The notes beneath the pieces are model-generated. The model did no database searches. It was not told where the DNA came from and was given only the letters and a program-made list of their open reading frames with translations. A stretch of DNA of 64,000 nt from Pyruvatibacter mobilis (GTDB lineage: Bacteria > Pseudomonadota > Alphaproteobacteria > CGMCC-115125), in NCBI RefSeq assembly GCF_012848855.1, contig NZ_CP051630.1:1901501-1965500 (forward strand), read 5' to 3'. A program made the translations under genes and the position numbers. Shown here piece after piece: positions 30,345 through 39,129 of the stretch (the stretch's first letter is position 1; the number at the start of each line of letters is the position of its first letter).

Positions 30345-30800
30345 CTAAATGCTGCTGCCCTGCTCGCGGCAGAAAAAGTGATCGCCGATGAGGGCCGTGG
30401 GAATCATCTGCGCGGACCAGGACGGCGTTTCGGAATGCAGGTGACAGGCTGTTGCGCCATCGACAAGGTCTTTCTCCTCTCCCGCAAAAACGCGGCAGAT
30501 GCTGGCCATAGCGCGGAAATGGGCGCGGGTGAGCTGGGACGGCACACCCACCGCATGGCCGGGCGGACAGGAGAGCTGCCAGCTGCCATCACCGAACAGG
30601 GGGTGGGCCGGGTTGCCCTTGCTGACATGGGCCAGGGCGTGGTCACGCCGGTTGCGGATCATCTGTGCTAGGGCCACGTAGGAATCTTCCGGCCCATTGC
30701 CCGCGAGACTGACCACCACGCAGGTCATGAAGAGAATGTCGTCATGCCCGGGCGGGCCGGCGACATCGGGGGGCGGCAGGTGGCGGATCGGCGTTGGCAC
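30345..30800 (-). CDS. SleB-like cell wall hydrolase (GTA/phage lysin), probably degenerate
   Basis: A 151-residue protein with the later motifs of the SleB/Hydrolase_2 family: ALAQMIRNRRDHA (usual VALVVLNR position), FGDGSWQLSCPPG (FSCW region), DLVDGATACHLHSETPSW (usually DPTGGATHYH...PRWA) and IGDHFFCRE at the end. In working members a catalytic Glu sits in a GEARGE or AEAGG motif just before the first of these; here the equivalent stretch reads VSLAGNGPEDS, with Leu in the Glu position. The start is a GTG at 30800. It lies 208 bases downstream of the holin gene, as expected for a lysis partner. Confidence 0.68.
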   Translation of the reverse strand: MPTPIRHLPPPDVAGPPGHDDILFMTCVVVSLAGNGPEDSYVALAQMIRNRRDHALAHVSKGNPAHPLFGDGSWQLSCPPGHAVGVPSQLTRAHFRAMASICRVFAGEEKDLVDGATACHLHSETPSWSAQMIPTALIGDHFFCREQGSSI

Positions 30801-30833
30801 CAGGGGATACCCTGTTTCTGACGGTTATCGGCC

Positions 30834-30922
30834 GGCGACAGGGGCTCACCCCCGCCTCGCCAAACGGAAATAGGATTTTAATCCTATACCGCTTCTGCAA
30901 CCGGGTTCAATCCCTGTTCGCC
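30834..30922. other. Structured 89-base element with tRNA-like features
   Basis: Outer arms GGCGACAGGG (30834-30843) and CCCTGTTCGCC (30912-30922) pair over ten bases with one bulge. Between them is an 18-base palindrome, ATAGGATT-TT-AATCCTAT (30870-30887), and on the plus strand GGTTCAATCC (30904-30913) matches the tRNA T-loop consensus. Size and arm placement resemble a class II tRNA, but the central hairpin loop would be six or eight bases, not seven, and no D-arm is recognisable. It could be a decayed tRNA, a structured RNA or a palindromic operator. It fills the holin-lysin gap in unusually AT-rich surroundings. Confidence 0.35.
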
Positions 30923-31008
30923 TTCCTCATATGGTACAATTCTATCTTAAGTTGTTAATAGGTTGTATTGGGTTGATGGGTAATCGAGATACCCGCGCCG
31001 ACTGCCCC

Positions 31009-31410
31009 TCAGGGACGGGCAGCCCAGTTGCGGACCGCCTTTTCCGTTGACCGGCCAATGACATACCCGCCGACGCCGACGGTGAGCAGGTTCCACATGG
31101 GCTCCGGCAGGGGCAGGTGCACGGCGACGCCAAACAGGAGCTCCATGTAGGGCGCCAGCAGGTAGTTGTTGATCAGGATGGCCGTGATCGACAGCATCAG
31201 GACAGGCCGCCACTGGGCAGCAAGCGGATGCTCGCTGCGGGCTTCGGCCTCAATGATGGCGCCGGCGGCACGGGCCAGCTCCCCCTCCCTCTCCAGCGCA
31301 AGACGCTGCAGATCCTGCTTCAAACGGGCGGCGAGATCGCGGTCGGACACCGATTTGTCGATCAGTCCGGCGACGGGGCCTGTGAGGAAAGACAGAATGG
31401 CGGACAGCAT
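31009..31410 (-). CDS. GTA-type 3TM holin
   Basis: A 133-residue protein matching the 'holin of 3TMs, for gene-transfer release' family: short hydrophobic N-terminus (LSAILSFLTGPVAGLIDK), a charged amphipathic helix (about 25-55), then AAQWRPVLMLSITAILINNYLLAPYMELLFG and a C-terminal VGGYVIGRSTEKAV segment. The WRP, NNY-APY and GRS-EK motifs are the conserved marks of the family. It would permeabilise the inner membrane so that the lysin reaches the wall. It follows the DUF2793 gene by 51 bases that contain an 11-base tandem repeat. Confidence 0.88.
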   Translation of the reverse strand: MLSAILSFLTGPVAGLIDKSVSDRDLAARLKQDLQRLALEREGELARAAGAIIEAEARSEHPLAAQWRPVLMLSITAILINNYLLAPYMELLFGVAVHLPLPEPMWNLLTVGVGGYVIGRSTEKAVRNWAARP

Positions 31411-31423
31411 CGGGAGGCTCCCT

Positions 31424-31466
31424 TGGCGTTTTCTGGGCGTTATCTGGGCGCTACCTGAGCGCTACT
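31424..31466 (-). repeat. Four imperfect 11-base tandem repeats before the holin start
   Basis: On the plus strand the units TGGCGTTTTC, TGGGCGTTATC, TGGGCGCTACC and TGAGCGCTACTG follow each other without spacers. The array covers the stop codon of the DUF2793 gene and ends ten bases before the holin ribosome-binding region, where GGGAGCCTCCC can itself fold. The position suggests slippage-prone DNA that sets the spacing between the two genes. Confidence 0.7.
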
Positions 31467-32166
31467 GGAAATCGGGGATCTGCAGGCGGGCGATATGGGC
31501 GGAGACCTGGACGCTGCCCCCGGTGAAGGGCACGTCCGGCGAGGTGAAACGGATCGGCGTGTCTGCCCAATAGACGATGGGCTGGGCGGGGCCGTTGAGC
31601 TGGGAATTGAGGCCGGTGCCGATGCCGTTGCCGAACCGCTGCGCGTCGCCGCTGACACCGACGGCAAAGCTGGCCGGGCCCGTGACCGGGTCCGTCACCA
31701 GGCAGGTGACACCGAAGAGAAGCGACCGCTGGGGGATGACGATGGCGGTGTCCGACGTGACAGCAGCGTCAAGCACATGAGTTTCGGCAATGGCATCGAA
31801 GAAGAGGGCCGAGCCGAAGGACGTGATCGCATGGCCCTGCCGCCAGCGGCCGTGCAGAAAGCGGGTATCGCTGCCCTCCTCCACGACAAGGCAGCGCCAG
31901 CCCTCCGGCGGGGGAAAGAACCGCCAGGCCCCGTCGTGCCAGGCGGCAATGCTGTGATCGTTACCGGCCCAGTCGCCGGTGGCGGCGGCAGGCACGAGGT
32001 AGCGGTCACCCTCCCCGGGGATTGCAGGTGGCGCGGTGAGGCTGCGGCTGATCACAGATAGCTGCACAAGCGCGTCCAGCATCATCAATGCATCGTTGTG
32101 GGTAACGTGCTTCTGCGCCTGGGCCGGGGCGATGACAGGCAGGGAGAGGGACGGCGTCTCAGACAT
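31462..32166 (-). CDS. DUF2793 family phage/GTA protein
   Basis: A 234-residue protein whose first 100 residues match DUF2793, with the hallmark LPVIAPAQAQKHVTHNDALMMLDALVQLSV, then GDRYLVP and HDGAWRFFPPPEGWRCLVV. The C-terminal half is beta-rich with a VGVSGDAQRFGNGIGTGLNSQLNGPAQPIVYW segment, like a tail-associated or carbohydrate-binding module. DUF2793 genes commonly follow GTA gene 15. Its start overlaps the gp15 stop by eight bases (ATGTCTGA), so translation is coupled. Confidence 0.88.
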   Translation of the reverse strand: MSETPSLSLPVIAPAQAQKHVTHNDALMMLDALVQLSVISRSLTAPPAIPGEGDRYLVPAAATGDWAGNDHSIAAWHDGAWRFFPPPEGWRCLVVEEGSDTRFLHGRWRQGHAITSFGSALFFDAIAETHVLDAAVTSDTAIVIPQRSLLFGVTCLVTDPVTGPASFAVGVSGDAQRFGNGIGTGLNSQLNGPAQPIVYWADTPIRFTSPDVPFTGGSVQVSAHIARLQIPDFQ

Positions 32167-35100
32167 GGAAGGTGGCCTCTGCTGGGGTGCCGGGGCCGTA
32201 AGCCCGGCTGATCTGCGCGATGGTGACTGTCAGCACGGTGACCGGCGCGCCGGTATCCGCAAGCTGGTCAGCGGCGGTGTAGGTGAAGGCGGGCGTGGTG
32301 GTTTCAGCCGCGTGGATCACGGTGCCGCCCGCGCTTATGGTGAGGGCATAGCGCTCCGCGTCCTCCCCGACGGGGACGTCCAACGGTTCCCACGCATCGC
32401 CGTTGATCCGGGTGCGGCGTATCCAGGTGAGGTGAATGTCACCGGCGGCATCGCGGCAGGCATGAAGGTGGACAGGCGACAGCGGCCGCAGCCCCCTGCC
32501 TGCCAGCGTGATCTCGCGGGCCTGATAGGCCGGGTGAGAAATGGCGGCGGGGGCCGGTCCGTAGCGCCACAGGAAGGGAAAGCCATGCTCCTGTTCTGAC
32601 AGGGAAGGCTGACGCAATGGGCCGCCGAGCAGCACGAAACGGGCACCGGCTGCGCGCAGCGGATGCATTTCGGGCTCAGACCCGGCCTGGCCGCGCAGGA
32701 GATGGGACAGCTCGTATGTGTCCGGGGCGATGAGATCGGCCTCACGGAACTGGATGACTTCGAAGCCGGTGGCCTCGTCGCCGATTACCGCGGCGTTGGC
32801 CCCGCCCATGAGCGCCGTTGTGGAAACACTCTCAAGCGTGCCGCCATAAAGACGGAGCTGAAGGCGGTTGGCGCGGTCCCACCGGCCGACGGGCCCTGCC
32901 GGCAGATCCGCCAGCACCTCACCCATGACAGCGGGCGCCGGCAAGGCGGTATCGAGCGTGAGATCATCCGGCGAGGTGCCGCGATAAAGAGCAACGCCGC
33001 CCGGCCAGGGACTGGCTGTGGCGGCGATGAAGGGGGCGTGCGGCACCTGGCCGTCGCGCAGCATGGGCAGATCCAGAAACAGGAGCTCAACCGGGCCGAA
33101 GCTTGCAACCGCGGGGCCTGCTGCACTGCGATCGGGCGCGCTTAGGGGGCCGAAGATGCCGGGCTCGGCGGCCAGGGCTTCCGCAGCCCGGAAGGGGCCA
33201 TCTGAAATGCGCATCAGGCGCAGAATGTGGCTGCGGCCATTATGGGCGCAGGTGATGCTGTCGCCGGGATCAACGGCGAGGGCCGAGGGCGGCAGGGCGA
33301 AGGATGCCTGCTCTCGGGCGATCCAGCTGTCCTGCAACCCCGTTTCGGCGATGCGCAGGGCTTCCTCCTGCCGCAGGACCACCGGCAGGGCTGCGCCCGT
33401 GACCCTGTCAGACTTCACCGTCTGGCGCTGCACGCCGATGGCGGCCTGCCGGTAGCCCGTGTCCGCTTCGATGTAGGAGAGCTTGCTGGCGGCGGGCAGA
33501 TCCGTCTCCTGGGCGCGGGTGAGGCTCAGGGGCGGGGCGGCGCTTCCGGTTTCAACGGCCAGGGTGTCGGTGCTTGTGGTCAGCACGGGCTGGCTGCCGC
33601 GGTGGATGAAGCGGATCACGCCCTCGCTTTCCACCGCGTCGAAGAAATAGGCGCGCATGAGAGGGCCAAGGGCGGCGCGGGCGCTCATGGCGCGGTCGAT
33701 GATGTAGCCGTCGACGAGGCCGGATAGTCCGCTTACGTCATAGTCACCAAAGCCCTGCGCCTCCATCAGGACCGCGACGAGGCGGCCGAGGGGGACGGCA
33801 CCGAGGCGGCCGGTGAGCCAGTGGCCCAGGCGCCAGTTGTCGCCGTCGCTCCACAGGCGGGTGGCCTGGGGGAAAGCGGGCCAGGGGCGCGCGTCCCATG
33901 TCCAGACATGGATGGCGTCCGGATCGACCATGCGGCCGCCATAGAGCGGCGAGACGGGATTGTCAGCCTCATCGAAATCCGCCGACGAGGGGTGCCAGTG
34001 GGCGTGGTGGGCGAGCAGGAACTGGCGCTGGATCACGTCGTCGCGCAGGCCGCGCGAGAAATGGGGCAGATGGCTTTCGGCGGATTTGGTGTCGAAGAAG
34101 ACGTTGGGCTGATTGGCGCCACGGTCCACCGCCGGGCAGCCGAGCTCGGTGAACCAGATGGGTTTCGAGCGGGGGACCCAGGCCGTCTGGCCGCCGGTCT
34201 CAGTGCCGCCGATGCGGTTGACGTGCGGGTTGGACCACCAATTGACGAGGTCCTTGTAGCGGAAGACCCAGGGCTTGCCTGCAGCACCATCGGTAATGGG
34301 GGTACGGGTCTGGGCGGTGCGGTCCGCGTCGGATGCATAGAACCAGTCAAAGCCCTCGCCGCCTGCAATGTTGCCGCGCAGATAGGCCAGGTCCTGGGTG
34401 GACGGGGCACCCGCGAGGGCATCGAGGTGCCCCTGCCCGTCCCGCCAGTCGGCCAGGGGCATGTAATTGTCAATGCCGATGACATCGATATGGGGGGATG
34501 CCCAGAGGGGATCGAGATGGAAGGTGACGTCGCCTGATCCATCCGTGGGCTGGTGGCCGAAATATTCGGACCAGTCAGCCGCATAGATGAGCATGGTAGC
34601 GGGGCCGAGGATCTGACGGACATCGGCGGCGAGCTGCTGCAAGGCGGCGACGGCGGGGTAGCCGGTATTGCCCCGTACCCAGGTGAGGCCCCTCAGCTCG
34701 GTGCCGATGAGGAAGGCCGCGACGCCGCCTGCAGCCTTGCACAGATGGGCGTAGTGCAGGATCTGCCGGCGATAGGACCATTCGGGCGGGCCGGCATAGG
34801 TGACATTGGTGCCGGTGACCGTGAAGTCGCCTGGCCGGGCTGACCCGAAGAAGGCTGCGACTTGCGCTGCCGCAGCCGCCGACCTGTCCGGGGAGCCAGG
34901 CTGGCCGGGCGCAGGATCGACGGTGATGCGGCCGCGCCAGGGATGCTGCGGCTGACCAATGAGGCCCGTATAGGGATCCGCCAGCACATTGCCGGGCGGG
35001 ATGTCCATCATGATGAAGGGATAGAAAGTGACGGCGAGGCCGCGGGCGGCAAGGTCCTGCAGGGCCTCGATCACGGAGGTGTCCGACGGGGTGCCGCCAT

Positions 35101-35962
35101 AGGCCGGGCGGCCGTCGATGGTGGTGACCAGGTCCGCCGACTGACGGTCAAGGCCGGAGACGTGCCAGGTGGCGGGCGTTGTTGCCTGCCCCGCTTCGAC
35201 CACCTTGGGGCGCAGGGTGCAGGTGCCGGCACGCAGATCATCGCCGAACCAGGCCACGATAAGCCCGGCGCGGGCGAGGTTCGGGCAGGTGTCCTGCAAC
35301 TGGTCGATGGCCACGGTCCAATCGGTGGCACCGAGCGCGTTGTTGGTGTTGAGGGGTTCTGAAACGCCACCAGGGAACAGACGGGTTTGCGGCGCGGGGC
35401 TGTAGCCGAACTCAGTTGCGCCGGGGATGATGGTGACGGCGCGGATGAGGCTTTCAACGTCGTTCAGGGCACGGAACACTTCCACCTGCAATTGCGGCAG
35501 GCGGTTACCGTAGGGCGCAAGCGGCAGGCGCTCGAAGACCACATAGGCAAGACCGCGAAAGGCGGGGACGCGGCCTGCCCCTTCCACGGCTTCGATCAGC
35601 GGATCCGGACCTTGCGTCTCCGTGCCCGTGTGCAGGCGCCAGGCAATCTGGCTCAGATCCATCAGCTTGCCGTCGGCCCAGATGCGGCCGATGCGGGTGA
35701 TGGGGCCTTCGCACAGGCCGAGGGCGAAATTGCCGAAATAGCGGTACTCGATCGTGGTAATGCGCTGGGTCTGGGTGGTGGTGGCGCCGCTGCCGCTGCC
35801 GCCCTTGCCGCCTCCTGAAGAAGACGCCGTGGCGGTGGATTCAGTGACCGTCTCGACGATGTCCTCATCGAAATCGGTGGCCCAGATGAGCTGGCCGGAC
35901 AGACGCGCCCGCCCGAAGGCGCGGGGAATGGGCGCACCTTCGCTGGAGGACATGACCTGCAC
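32159..35962 (-). CDS. GTA host-specificity/tail megatron protein (gp15-like), N-terminally truncated
   Basis: A 1267-residue homologue of the Rhodobacter GTA gene 15 tail protein. It starts inside the conserved region (QVMSSSEGAPIPRAFGRARLSGQLIWATDF). Residues about 395-700 form the GTA TIM-barrel domain, with Glu422 (IGTEL) and Glu606 (WFTELGCP) in the positions of glycosidase acid/base and nucleophile. The phage-tail_3-type region follows at about 760-1150. The start shown is a GTG without a good ribosome-binding site. In-frame homologous codons continue upstream to a stop at 36035-36037, so the original N-terminus (tens of hydrophobic residues in relatives) is lost. The rest of the frame is intact. 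Confidence 0.9.
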   Translation of the reverse strand: MQVMSSSEGAPIPRAFGRARLSGQLIWATDFDEDIVETVTESTATASSSGGGKGGSGSGATTTQTQRITTIEYRYFGNFALGLCEGPITRIGRIWADGKLMDLSQIAWRLHTGTETQGPDPLIEAVEGAGRVPAFRGLAYVVFERLPLAPYGNRLPQLQVEVFRALNDVESLIRAVTIIPGATEFGYSPAPQTRLFPGGVSEPLNTNNALGATDWTVAIDQLQDTCPNLARAGLIVAWFGDDLRAGTCTLRPKVVEAGQATTPATWHVSGLDRQSADLVTTIDGRPAYGGTPSDTSVIEALQDLAARGLAVTFYPFIMMDIPPGNVLADPYTGLIGQPQHPWRGRITVDPAPGQPGSPDRSAAAAAQVAAFFGSARPGDFTVTGTNVTYAGPPEWSYRRQILHYAHLCKAAGGVAAFLIGTELRGLTWVRGNTGYPAVAALQQLAADVRQILGPATMLIYAADWSEYFGHQPTDGSGDVTFHLDPLWASPHIDVIGIDNYMPLADWRDGQGHLDALAGAPSTQDLAYLRGNIAGGEGFDWFYASDADRTAQTRTPITDGAAGKPWVFRYKDLVNWWSNPHVNRIGGTETGGQTAWVPRSKPIWFTELGCPAVDRGANQPNVFFDTKSAESHLPHFSRGLRDDVIQRQFLLAHHAHWHPSSADFDEADNPVSPLYGGRMVDPDAIHVWTWDARPWPAFPQATRLWSDGDNWRLGHWLTGRLGAVPLGRLVAVLMEAQGFGDYDVSGLSGLVDGYIIDRAMSARAALGPLMRAYFFDAVESEGVIRFIHRGSQPVLTTSTDTLAVETGSAAPPLSLTRAQETDLPAASKLSYIEADTGYRQAAIGVQRQTVKSDRVTGAALPVVLRQEEALRIAETGLQDSWIAREQASFALPPSALAVDPGDSITCAHNGRSHILRLMRISDGPFRAAEALAAEPGIFGPLSAPDRSAAGPAVASFGPVELLFLDLPMLRDGQVPHAPFIAATASPWPGGVALYRGTSPDDLTLDTALPAPAVMGEVLADLPAGPVGRWDRANRLQLRLYGGTLESVSTTALMGGANAAVIGDEATGFEVIQFREADLIAPDTYELSHLLRGQAGSEPEMHPLRAAGARFVLLGGPLRQPSLSEQEHGFPFLWRYGPAPAAISHPAYQAREITLAGRGLRPLSPVHLHACRDAAGDIHLTWIRRTRINGDAWEPLDVPVGEDAERYALTISAGGTVIHAAETTTPAFTYTAADQLADTGAPVTVLTVTIAQISRAYGPGTPAEATFHV

Positions 35963-36034
35963 GTCCGAGAGGCGCGGGCCTGCTGTAAGGCGCAGGCCGG
36001 CTGTGTGGGCGAGCCGGTTAGCTAGCGCGGCAGG
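35963..36034 (-). pseudogene. Untranslated remnant of the gp15 N-terminus
   Basis: Reading upstream in the gp15 frame gives PAALANRLAHTAG, then LRLTAGPRLSDV, directly joined to QVMSSSEGAPIP. GPRLSD-V is the sequence expected immediately before this point in GTA gene 15 proteins. No ATG, GTG or TTG occurs in these 24 codons before the TGA at 36035-36037, so they cannot be translated with gp15. The end of the kinase gene (stop at 36022-36024) overlaps this remnant, marking the junction of the rearrangement. Confidence 0.7.
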
Positions 36035-37266
36035 TCAATGCCGAAGCGCGCGCCGCTGGTTTCGCGGTTTTCAACCCAGGCCGTCCCGCCATGGGCTTCG
36101 GCGATGGCCTTGACCAGGGACAGGCCGAGGCCAGTGGCGACTTCACCGCCGGTGGGGGCTGCGGAGAGCGTCTGGAAGCGGCCGAAAACACGGGCCATGT
36201 CGTCGTCGGTAAGGCCGGGGCCTTCATCCTCGACGGTGAAGCGCAGGCGCGCGTCACCCGGCGAGGCGGCCACGCGGATGGCGCTGCCGGGCGGGGCGTA
36301 CTTGACTGCGTTGGAGACAAGATTATCCAGCGCTTCGATGAGAAGATCCTCATCGGCGGACAGGGTGAGACCGTCAGGCACGGCGACGGTGATGGCCATC
36401 TGCTTGCCGGCGGCATGATCCTGATTGAAGCCTATGGCGCGGGAGAGGACATCAGCCACACCCACCTCGGCGCGGTGCAGCGGCAGGGTTTCGGTCTCCT
36501 TGCGGGCCCGGTCCATCATGCCTGCGATGAGGGTGGACATGCGGTCCACGGCTTCGAGTGATTTTTCAGCGGCCTTGCGGATGTGATCGTCAGTGGCCGG
36601 AGCATCGGCTGCGAGTGCGGCGAGGATCGCGTCGCTGCGCAGGGAGATGGTTTGCAGGGCGCCGCGCATGTCGTGGGCGGCGAGCGCCAGAAGCTGGCTC
36701 TTGGTGGCGTTGGCGGCGCGGGCGGCGGCGGCGCGCCTGTCCAGCCGCTGATTGGTGCGGCGCAGGGACTGGATGAGCTGCTCCCGCTCCCGCTCCAGCC
36801 GCATGCGCTCGATTTCCGCCTGGGCGCGGACGCCATAGATGCGCAGGATGCGCTCCACCTGATCGGGAGACTCGATGGGGGTTTCGGACAGCACGGCCAG
36901 ATGGCCCTTCACTTCTCCGTCGGCGGACCACAGGGGCACCCCCGCATAGCCTTCATAGCCCTGCTCGACCGGAAACAGGCGGGCGACGTCGCAGGGGATG
37001 ACGACGGTGCGGCCTTCATAGACGCGCTGGCAGGGGGTGCCCGCCAGATCATATTCAAAACCCTGGGCGGTCTGGTTTTCGCGGACGACGAAGCGGGCAT
37101 GGGCACGCTCGGGCGGCGCGCCCACCGCTTCGGTCAGGAAGGCGACGGTGACGTCCATCGCGGATTGCAGGGAGCGCACCAGGGCAAAGAGAAACTCCTC
37201 CCCCACATGGGCGGCCACGCCTTCGGCGATGGCGAGCAGGACAGGCTCGTCAGCCGGGTTTGCCAT
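36022..37266 (-). CDS. GAF-domain sensor histidine kinase inside the GTA cluster
   Basis: A 414-residue soluble kinase started at the ATG at 37266 (ribosome-binding site GGCGGAGGA). A GAF domain (about 20-155) is followed by a coiled coil (152-190), a HisKA box with His198 in LAAHDMRGALQ and an HATPase domain with NLVSNAVKYA, DEGPGL and TGLGLS. No transmembrane segment, so it senses a cytoplasmic ligand or partner. No response regulator is adjacent. It occupies the place of GTA genes 3-14 between terminase and gp15, separated from terL by 107 bases. The C-terminus looks natural, so the kinase itself is complete. Confidence 0.9.
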   Translation of the reverse strand: MANPADEPVLLAIAEGVAAHVGEEFLFALVRSLQSAMDVTVAFLTEAVGAPPERAHARFVVRENQTAQGFEYDLAGTPCQRVYEGRTVVIPCDVARLFPVEQGYEGYAGVPLWSADGEVKGHLAVLSETPIESPDQVERILRIYGVRAQAEIERMRLEREREQLIQSLRRTNQRLDRRAAAARAANATKSQLLALAAHDMRGALQTISLRSDAILAALAADAPATDDHIRKAAEKSLEAVDRMSTLIAGMMDRARKETETLPLHRAEVGVADVLSRAIGFNQDHAAGKQMAITVAVPDGLTLSADEDLLIEALDNLVSNAVKYAPPGSAIRVAASPGDARLRFTVEDEGPGLTDDDMARVFGRFQTLSAAPTGGEVATGLGLSLVKAIAEAHGGTAWVENRETSGARFGIDLPR

Positions 37267-37373
37267 GGCGTGTTGATCCTCCGCCGGGGTTGCGGTCAGG
37301 TCTGGTGCGGGCAAACACATAATTCCGTTCGGGTTATTCTTCAATCGCCTGTGCGGCATGACGCACAGGGAGC

Positions 37374-38693
37374 CTATAGGGGCCGCAACCGGGGGTTGCC
37401 CTGGCGGGCATCGAGCATGAGATCCGTCAGTGCCCAGACAAGCGCATCCAGCCTGTCCGGCGAGCCGGATTGTGCGGGCGCCGAGGGGTCGAACTCGCAG
37501 AGCTGATCCTCCAGTCGGCGGTGGGTGCCGAGGTGATGCACCCGCGCCTGTTCGTAAAGCGCGGCGACGGGTTCGGCCCGCACGGCCTTGCCGCGGGTGG
37601 CGCGCACGAGGCGGACCGGCAGGGCCGGGTCCACCTGGCGCAGCACGGCCGCAACCATCTCGCCGCCCTGATTGGCCTCGGCCACGACACGGTCGGCCTC
37701 GTGGCTGTGATAGGCATCGGCCACCCGCCGGGCCCAGCGGGCGGGGCTGAGGCCGCCCATGGACCGGTCAGCCAGGACATAGCCGTGGCCGTCCTCCCCT
37801 GCCCCGGCGACGACAATGCCGCATTCATCCGCAGACGGAGAAGACGAGGCCGGCGGGTCCACCGCGACGACGATCCGCTGCAGCGGCGGCACTGCCGTGA
37901 CGCGCGCACCATCGAGCATGGCGCGCTGCCAGAGGGCGCGGGGGTTATCCTCCAATATCTCCGCTTCGAGTTCCTGCCGCCCCAGGCGGGTGCCGTGATA
38001 GCGGCGCATGACGGCGCTCAGGAAACCCGGTGCCAGATTGGCCGCGTTGGCGCTGGTACCGGCGCGGCTGATACGAGTCATGTCGTCGGTCATCAGGCGC
38101 TTCAGGGCCGGGAGCGGACGCGGTGTGGTGGTGACAACCTGGCGGGGCCGGTCTCCCAGCCGCAGGCCGAATTGCAGCATGTCCCATGTCTCCTGCACAT
38201 GGCGCCATTTGGCGAACTCATCCGCCCAGGCGGCGTGGACCTGATGGCCGCGCAGGGCATCTGGGTCCTCCGACGAAAAGGCGAAGGCGCGGGCGCCGGA
38301 GGGCCATTCAAGCAGGCGCTTGGAGGCGACCCAGCGGGGGCGCGCGGCGGGCGGCGCGATGGCGATGAGGCCGGAGGGGCCTTCGATCATCACGTCGCGC
38401 ACATCGGCTAGGGTTTCGCCGACAAGGGCGATGCGGACGGGCTTACGGGCACAGGCGCGGATCCATTCGGCCCCGGCGCGCGTCTTGCCGGCACCGCGGC
38501 CACCGAGCAGCAGCCATGTGGTCCAACAGTCGGTGCCGGGCGGCGGCAACTGATCGTCGCGCGCCCAGACGGACCAGGTGTAATAGAGCGCTTCAGCTTC
38601 CCGCACCGTCAGGCTGCGGAGGAAGGCTGCCCTGTGATCGGGCGGCAGTGAGGCGAGCCACCCGCTCAGCGATCGCAGCGACGATACGGTCAT
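37374..38693 (-). CDS. terL: GTA/phage large terminase (gp2-like)
   Basis: A 439-residue large terminase. ATPase: Walker A GGRGAGKT (64-71), Walker B region AAWADEF (154-160) and a TTTPRPLPALKRLM coupling motif. RNase H-like nuclease: Asp279 in VVAVDPP, Glu339 in VVAEANQGG and Asp416 in SPDRLDALVW. All catalytic residues are present, so the packaging motor could be functional. The first part of the gene overlaps the small terminase by about 100 bases. It is the first large gene of a GTA cluster but is followed by a kinase instead of a portal gene. Confidence 0.93.
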   Translation of the reverse strand: MTVSSLRSLSGWLASLPPDHRAAFLRSLTVREAEALYYTWSVWARDDQLPPPGTDCWTTWLLLGGRGAGKTRAGAEWIRACARKPVRIALVGETLADVRDVMIEGPSGLIAIAPPAARPRWVASKRLLEWPSGARAFAFSSEDPDALRGHQVHAAWADEFAKWRHVQETWDMLQFGLRLGDRPRQVVTTTPRPLPALKRLMTDDMTRISRAGTSANAANLAPGFLSAVMRRYHGTRLGRQELEAEILEDNPRALWQRAMLDGARVTAVPPLQRIVVAVDPPASSSPSADECGIVVAGAGEDGHGYVLADRSMGGLSPARWARRVADAYHSHEADRVVAEANQGGEMVAAVLRQVDPALPVRLVRATRGKAVRAEPVAALYEQARVHHLGTHRRLEDQLCEFDPSAPAQSGSPDRLDALVWALTDLMLDARQGNPRLRPL

Positions 38694-39129
38694 GGTCGGC
38701 GGCGGTGTCCCTGTCCGGTGGGGTTGCCTGGCTGATGCGCTCGGACAGGGCCATCAGCTTGTCGAGCACCTGGGCGAGCGTGACGAGGAGCTTTGCTTCC
38801 CGCTCGCGCTCGGCGTCAGTGCGGCCAGGGTCCTTCGCGCAGTGTTCGAGATCGTCGATATTGGTCTGCAGGGCGCCGATGAGGCGGCTGAGCATAGCCA
38901 GTGACGGGTCCGGTGTCGGATCCGGTGGCAGCAGAGTCTCTCCGGCCGGTGCGTCCGTCTCCGGCGCGCGGCAGATGACCGGGAGACGGGGGCGGCGCTG
39001 TGGCCACTTCTCGGTCCTGACCCGGTGATAGAGCTGGGTCTGGGTTATGCCGAACAGCGCCATGATCTCGACGACCGTGAGCGCGCTGTCCCTGTAGGCC
39101 TGCTCGACGCCGGGCCAGTCTGGGGTCAT
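38593..39129 (-). CDS. GTA small terminase (gp1-like)
   Basis: A 178-residue protein with an N-terminal helix-turn-helix (TVVEIMALFGITQTQLYHRVRTEKWPQR, about 17-44), a Pro-rich linker (50-75) and a long helical oligomerisation region (about 78-165). This layout and the position directly before terL match GTA gene 1, the small terminase that recruits DNA to the packaging motor. Its end overlaps the large-terminase start by 101 bases. A probable promoter lies about 90 bases upstream. Confidence 0.8.
   Translation of the reverse strand: MTPDWPGVEQAYRDSALTVVEIMALFGITQTQLYHRVRTEKWPQRRPRLPVICRAPETDAPAGETLLPPDPTPDPSLAMLSRLIGALQTNIDDLEHCAKDPGRTDAEREREAKLLVTLAQVLDKLMALSERISQATPPDRDTAADHDRIVAAIAERVARLTAARSQGSLPPQPDGAGS

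Follow-up and report, generated by a model that had tools for sequence, protein, structure and literature searches.

A recent deletion has very probably inactivated a kinase-bearing RcGTA-like cluster in Pyruvatibacter mobilis

Comparison of a gene transfer agent (GTA) locus, a domesticated virus-like cluster for DNA transfer, of Pyruvatibacter mobilis with intact relatives indicated that this locus is, with high probability, a recently inactivated RcGTA-like GTA cluster, that is, a non-producer allele. As read from base-by-base alignment with the metagenome contig L190, the strain has lost 9,434 bp in one clean deletion, from the portal gene to the start of gp15. A recent deletion leaving a dead GTA was one of two readings offered by the original prediction, and it was strongly supported by the complete clusters of near-conspecifics and by the clean junction. 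The window, by which we mean the whole stretch of DNA analysed, comprised 64,000 nucleotides of contig NZ_CP051630.1 (positions 1,901,501 to 1,965,500 of the forward strand).

Analysis of open reading frames and family searches of the window detected, on the minus strand, terS, terL, a histidine kinase gene, gp15 (megatron), a DUF2793 gene, a GTA holin gene and a lysin gene, in the order originally predicted. The absence of portal, protease, capsid and tail genes from the window was likewise confirmed. The features of the locus were as follows.

38593..39129, minus strand: terS (gp1), small terminase, 178 aa (PHROG 1206, E = 1.4e-6; 49% identity to the co-located terS of a sister species, G001)
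37374..38693, minus strand: terL (gp2), large terminase, 439 aa, complete (Pfam Terminase_6N/6C)
36022..37266, minus strand: stand-alone histidine kinase, 414 aa from the likely start (Pfam HisKA and HATPase_c); the ORF first described was 36022-37359
35980..35981, no strand: deletion junction (base-level comparison with the L190 flanks)
32159..35980, minus strand: gp15 (megatron) remnant, codons 65-1338 in frame (NCBIfam NF048004 and alignments)
31462..32166, minus strand: DUF2793 protein, 234 aa, downstream of gp15 (Pfam PF10983; co-located in G001 and L189)
31009..31410, minus strand: GTA holin, 3 TM, 133 aa (Pfam PF11351, E = 1.1e-17; 71% identity to G001)
30345..30800, minus strand: probable GTA endolysin, 151 aa (PHROG 938, E = 5e-4; co-located in G001)

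The terL product had 77% identity to that of G001 and 98-99% identity to those of the metagenome contigs L109 and L110. GTA-type terL, gp15 (GTA_TIM), DUF2793 and GTA holin genes were present in the canonical order, in synteny with the complete cluster of another genome in the genus; judged by these families and their synteny, the locus is an RcGTA-like cluster by descent. The lysin had been described as SleB-like; its probable assignment as an endolysin was supported by PHROG 938, but its likeness to SleB/Hydrolase_2 (E = 0.03) was below the Pfam cut-off. This protein (30345-30800) exhibited only 27% identity to the co-located G001 lysin, while the holin and terL products had 71-77%, and either rapid divergence or replacement of the lysin could account for this difference.

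A search of the rest of the genome for GTA structural genes, by capsid profile and by DNA similarity to G001, found none. No match to the HK97 capsid family (PF05065) was detected anywhere in the genome in a profile search that did produce matches in control genomes and in G001, and the 11.5 kb of G001 DNA equivalent to the missing segment had no match in the genome other than a dispersed repeat of 40-50 bp. Absence was examined by profile for the capsid and by DNA similarity to G001 for the other missing genes, and the possibility that the missing genes are encoded elsewhere was rejected on these two results. The head-tail genes left in the window were terS, terL and the truncated gp15, which is below the 14 of 17 head-tail genes by which a complete RcGTA-like cluster has been defined (PMC10883770). 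A dispersed palindromic repeat, CCCTCCGGCTTGACCGGAGGG, was present in the terL-portal spacer of G001 (L033 19775-19822; G001:C2:857774-857821) and had ~60 matches in the window's genome and ~11 in that of another sister species, G003. Among the 76 genomes searched, including that of the window, the GTA_TIM family was detected in 10 and the capsid family in 19; a 32,612-codon open frame at G057 was discarded as an artefact of masked N.

IMG/VR was scanned with terL and gp15, and the nearest contigs had ~95-96% DNA identity to the window. Contig L110 had the order PBP1, CxxCxxCC, terS, terL, kinase, portal, gp3.5, protease, capsid and onwards, and L109 was similar. L190, which is the same contig as L260, carried the kinase, portal, all of the tail genes, a 1338-aa gp15 and DUF2793, while L189 and L259, which cover the 3' part of the cluster, had an intact 5' end of gp15. 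In these intact near-conspecific clusters, the kinase gene lay between terL and portal in the same orientation. The complete kinase-bearing cluster was pieced together from L110 (5' half), L190/L260 (kinase to DUF2793) and L189 (3' half), none of which spans terS to lysin, and these relatives are metagenome contigs rather than one closed genome of the same strain. This composite showed, at the level of sequence, that a complete head-tail cluster with a kinase at the terL-portal junction exists in the species or in its nearest relatives. Contig L111/L191, which is more distant (terL, 85%; gp15, 77%), had a complete cluster without the kinase. IMG/VR contigs are selected for viral content and are therefore enriched for structural genes, so that the frequency of the deletion is not estimable from them. 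The terL gene of L110 (2275-3593) was left out of the terL comparison because its reading frame is broken by a length change of one base, which is probably an error of assembly.

The presence of both the kinase and genes 3-14 in the intact clusters L109, L110 and L190 contradicted the original prediction of a kinase in place of these genes. Since intact clusters already have the kinase at the terL-portal junction, its insertion and the deletion are two separate events. A single replacement, in which incoming foreign DNA brought the kinase and eliminated genes 3-14 by recombination, would agree with the location of the kinase exactly at the junction and with the lack of a kinase orthologue in the three remaining genomes of the genus. 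This explanation is refuted by the three intact contigs and is also at odds with the left-hand homology, which continues 41 bp beyond the kinase stop into the kinase-portal spacer; we give it practically no chance of being correct. Most simply, the kinase gene would have inserted into the terL-portal junction within this species lineage without displacing anything.

The lost stretch extended from 41 bases beyond the kinase stop, in the kinase-portal spacer, to the inside of gp15 codon 65. The window followed L190 up to 35981 and then resumed at L190 9982-9983, and the blastn blocks in L189, L109 and L110 stopped at the same base as the junction. Base-level comparison with L190 detected no repeat or insertion sequence (IS) at the junction, and only one base (A) was common to both sides of the join, which suggests that the deletion arose by illegitimate recombination, possibly end-joining or a slippage-like process. 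The deletion removed the start of portal with its ribosome site, every gene through gp14, and the start and first 64 codons of gp15. The megatron profile NF048004 matched the window gp15 only from profile position 57, and the ORF began at residue 72 of the full-length protein (1337 aa in G001 and 1338 aa in L190). The first in-frame start left was a GTG at 35962, giving the 1267-aa ORF; in full-length relatives, this position is a normal codon in the interior of the gene, and on that comparison the start is fortuitous. The earlier description of an undamaged gp15 of 1267 codons was correct as to the lack of an internal stop but not as to the 5' end, where the native start and codons 1-64 are gone. 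As in pseudogenised clusters, there was a lesion at this locus and a close relative was complete at the same position. That the deletion is known from a single genome would be consistent with loss of the segment when the genome was assembled. The 3.33-Mb host genome is, however, a single contig and 100% complete, and neither breakpoint has a repeat that could collapse, which makes an assembly artefact quite improbable.

Synteny was then compared within the genus. In the sister species G001, this locus carried a complete GTA that lacked the kinase, and the flanks common to G001 and the window were PBP1 and a CxxCxxCC protein on one side and SDR genes on the other. The same flanks were present in G003, which is close to G001, but only the last 53 lysin codons of the GTA remained (L068 10502-10710; G003:C1 ~900557-900712); on this pattern, the near-total loss in G003 is independent of the window-strain deletion. 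In G002, the contig ended inside terS, and a 218-aa membrane-protein-like ORF that was found in neither G001 nor the window was located between the CxxCxxCC gene and the terS start (L069 109-765; G002:C459). GTA loss has usually been inferred from old absences. One locus in one genus is here seen complete without the kinase (G001), complete with the kinase (metagenome relatives), freshly deleted (window strain) and almost wholly lost (G003), and these four states make the origin and fate of non-producers in GTA-producing species directly testable.

The age of the deletion was estimated from the retained genes. No stops were present in 2402 retained codons, compared to a neutral expectation of ~183 stops per substitution per site, and this gave a 95% bound of ~0.016 per site on the neutral divergence since the deletion. 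The dS values to the nearest intact contigs were 0.11-0.16 for gp15 and 0.11-0.12 for the kinase, and terL had a dN/dS of 0.06 against L109. Branch lengths in the window strain (G000) and G001 were 0.279 and 0.246, respectively, for gp15 and 0.168 and 0.178 for terL, indicating no acceleration, and the two branches had 1 and 2 changes, respectively, at invariant sites in each gene; pairwise dS between these genomes was ~0.8-2.2, near saturation, and rates were trusted only at the strain level. Neither branch lengths nor dN/dS detected relaxed selection in terL or gp15, a result that is uninformative for so young a deletion and cannot show present selection. These data fit a deletion that would be too young to have left decay.

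The second reading in the original prediction was that the terminase, gp15 and lysis proteins have been kept for another function under kinase control. Although the open frames on both sides and the low dN/dS values could be taken in its favour, both are expected of a young deletion: zero stops are expected if the deletion is younger than ~1.6% neutral divergence, and low dN/dS is mostly a pre-deletion record, since intact strains are at a dS of ~0.11. Furthermore, gp15 is without its start and first 64 codons. Polarised gp15 changes in the window strain (13 non-synonymous and 17 synonymous) were similar to those in intact L190 (13 and 16) and were nominally above those in L189 (11 and 40; P = 0.047), with a pooled P value of 0.26. 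Repurposing of the remnants thus found no support and is very improbable.

Recent inactivation of the cluster suggests the following course of events. The kinase gene would first have settled between terL and portal of a complete cluster, and one later, separate deletion would have removed portal through gp14 and the gp15 start. No particle should be able to form without capsid, portal or tail, and TerS, TerL, the holin and the lysin would be decaying leftovers. A GTA non-producer may still receive DNA. The ComEC and DprA families, which are kept by most bacteria, were present in the window's genome. The soluble kinase, which has no response regulator next to it, could be a passenger or could provide input to a host phosphorelay controlling GTA production.

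The clusters of L110/L190 and G001 have the same content and order as the RcGTA-like clusters of Rhodobacter capsulatus and Caulobacter (terS, terL, portal, protease, capsid, tail genes and gp12-gp15). What sets this species apart from these is the histidine kinase gene at the terL-portal junction; the window strain further differs in lacking portal to gp14 and the gp15 start. Pseudogenised GTA clusters have been proposed as possible recent 'cheater' lineages (Kogay et al. 2024, PMC10883770). As in those clusters, structural genes are lost, remnants are in place and DNA-uptake genes are present; unlike them, this locus presents one exact, young deletion that can be read against intact near-conspecifics, together with the independent loss in G003. 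The window locus, whose lesion is exact and for which intact clusters of near-conspecifics are available, is a concrete candidate for such a 'cheater'.

The likely start of the kinase was an ATG at 37266, which follows a GGAGG motif and from which relatives align, making this the most likely start. All of the motifs of an orthodox sensor histidine kinase were present in the sequence (H-box, HDMR; N, DNLVSNAVK; G1, DEGPGL; F, FGRF; G2, GLGLS), and these were largely conserved in relatives. The GAF domain ascribed to this protein was not detectable by sequence, as the N-terminal 180 residues had no Pfam match and no credible PDB profile match and only HisKA and HATPase_c were matched; a single-sequence structure model (mean pLDDT, 49) was too poor for use. 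Copies with 99% identity were present between terL and portal in L109, L110 and L260, and near-identical copies were found only in these three metagenome contigs. Full-length relatives with 38-40% identity and the same length and architecture were detected in G012 and G204; these are also stand-alone cytoplasmic HisKA and HATPase_c kinases but are located beside metabolic or other genes, outside GTA loci, whereas the kinase of the window species is within a GTA cluster. A GTDB pattern scan with the kinase yielded one weak relative; searching the class with the N-terminal domain was the more productive approach. The base composition of the kinase gene was that of the genome (GC3, 0.81). Among strains, its dN/dS was 0.04-0.06, indicating that it makes a protein under constraint, and intact strains probably transcribe it together with the late genes. 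The literature searched contained no description of a GTA cluster with an internal kinase, which is weak evidence given partial coverage. A constrained stand-alone histidine kinase within an otherwise complete GTA cluster is, as far as this literature goes, new, and it indicates that arrival of a signalling gene at the terL-portal junction need not remove the neighbouring genes.

A role for the kinase as a dedicated GTA regulator in intact strains, acting through a host phosphorelay (e.g., CckA-ChpT-CtrA or similar), would be compatible with the deletion. In three metagenome contigs, the kinase gene is flanked by terL and portal and shares the orientation of the late genes. Its dN/dS is low and its catalytic motifs are complete; moreover, RcGTA production is known to depend on CtrA (PMC3999984). 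Against this, the relatives in G012 and G204 lie outside GTAs, the clusters of G001 and L111 manage without a kinase, unrelated genes occupy the same junction in other GTA-like clusters and the kinase persists in a strain with a dead GTA, so that we consider a regulatory role rather unlikely. A still more tentative proposal, which we regard as doubtful, is that the kinase is a GTA-dedicated sensor tuning particles in intact strains and that the window strain is a 'cheater' keeping the kinase and DNA uptake. If true, this would provide a natural producer/non-producer pair for measuring GTA cost and benefit.

Examination of 79 collected loci with terL and portal detected 5 with >700 bp between these genes (L109, L110, L138, L176 and L164). 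As the terL-portal junction tolerates cargo in other clusters, the kinase is likelier to be a passenger in a permissive junction than a regulator. Reading of the sequences, rather than family searches, suggested a membrane protein and a diguanylate cyclase on the opposite strand in the gap of L138 (1757-3838), a membrane-protein ORF in that of L176 (3185-3817) and a DNA methylase in that of L164, a phage-like locus. An extra gene was likewise located between terL and portal in L122 (1854-2330).
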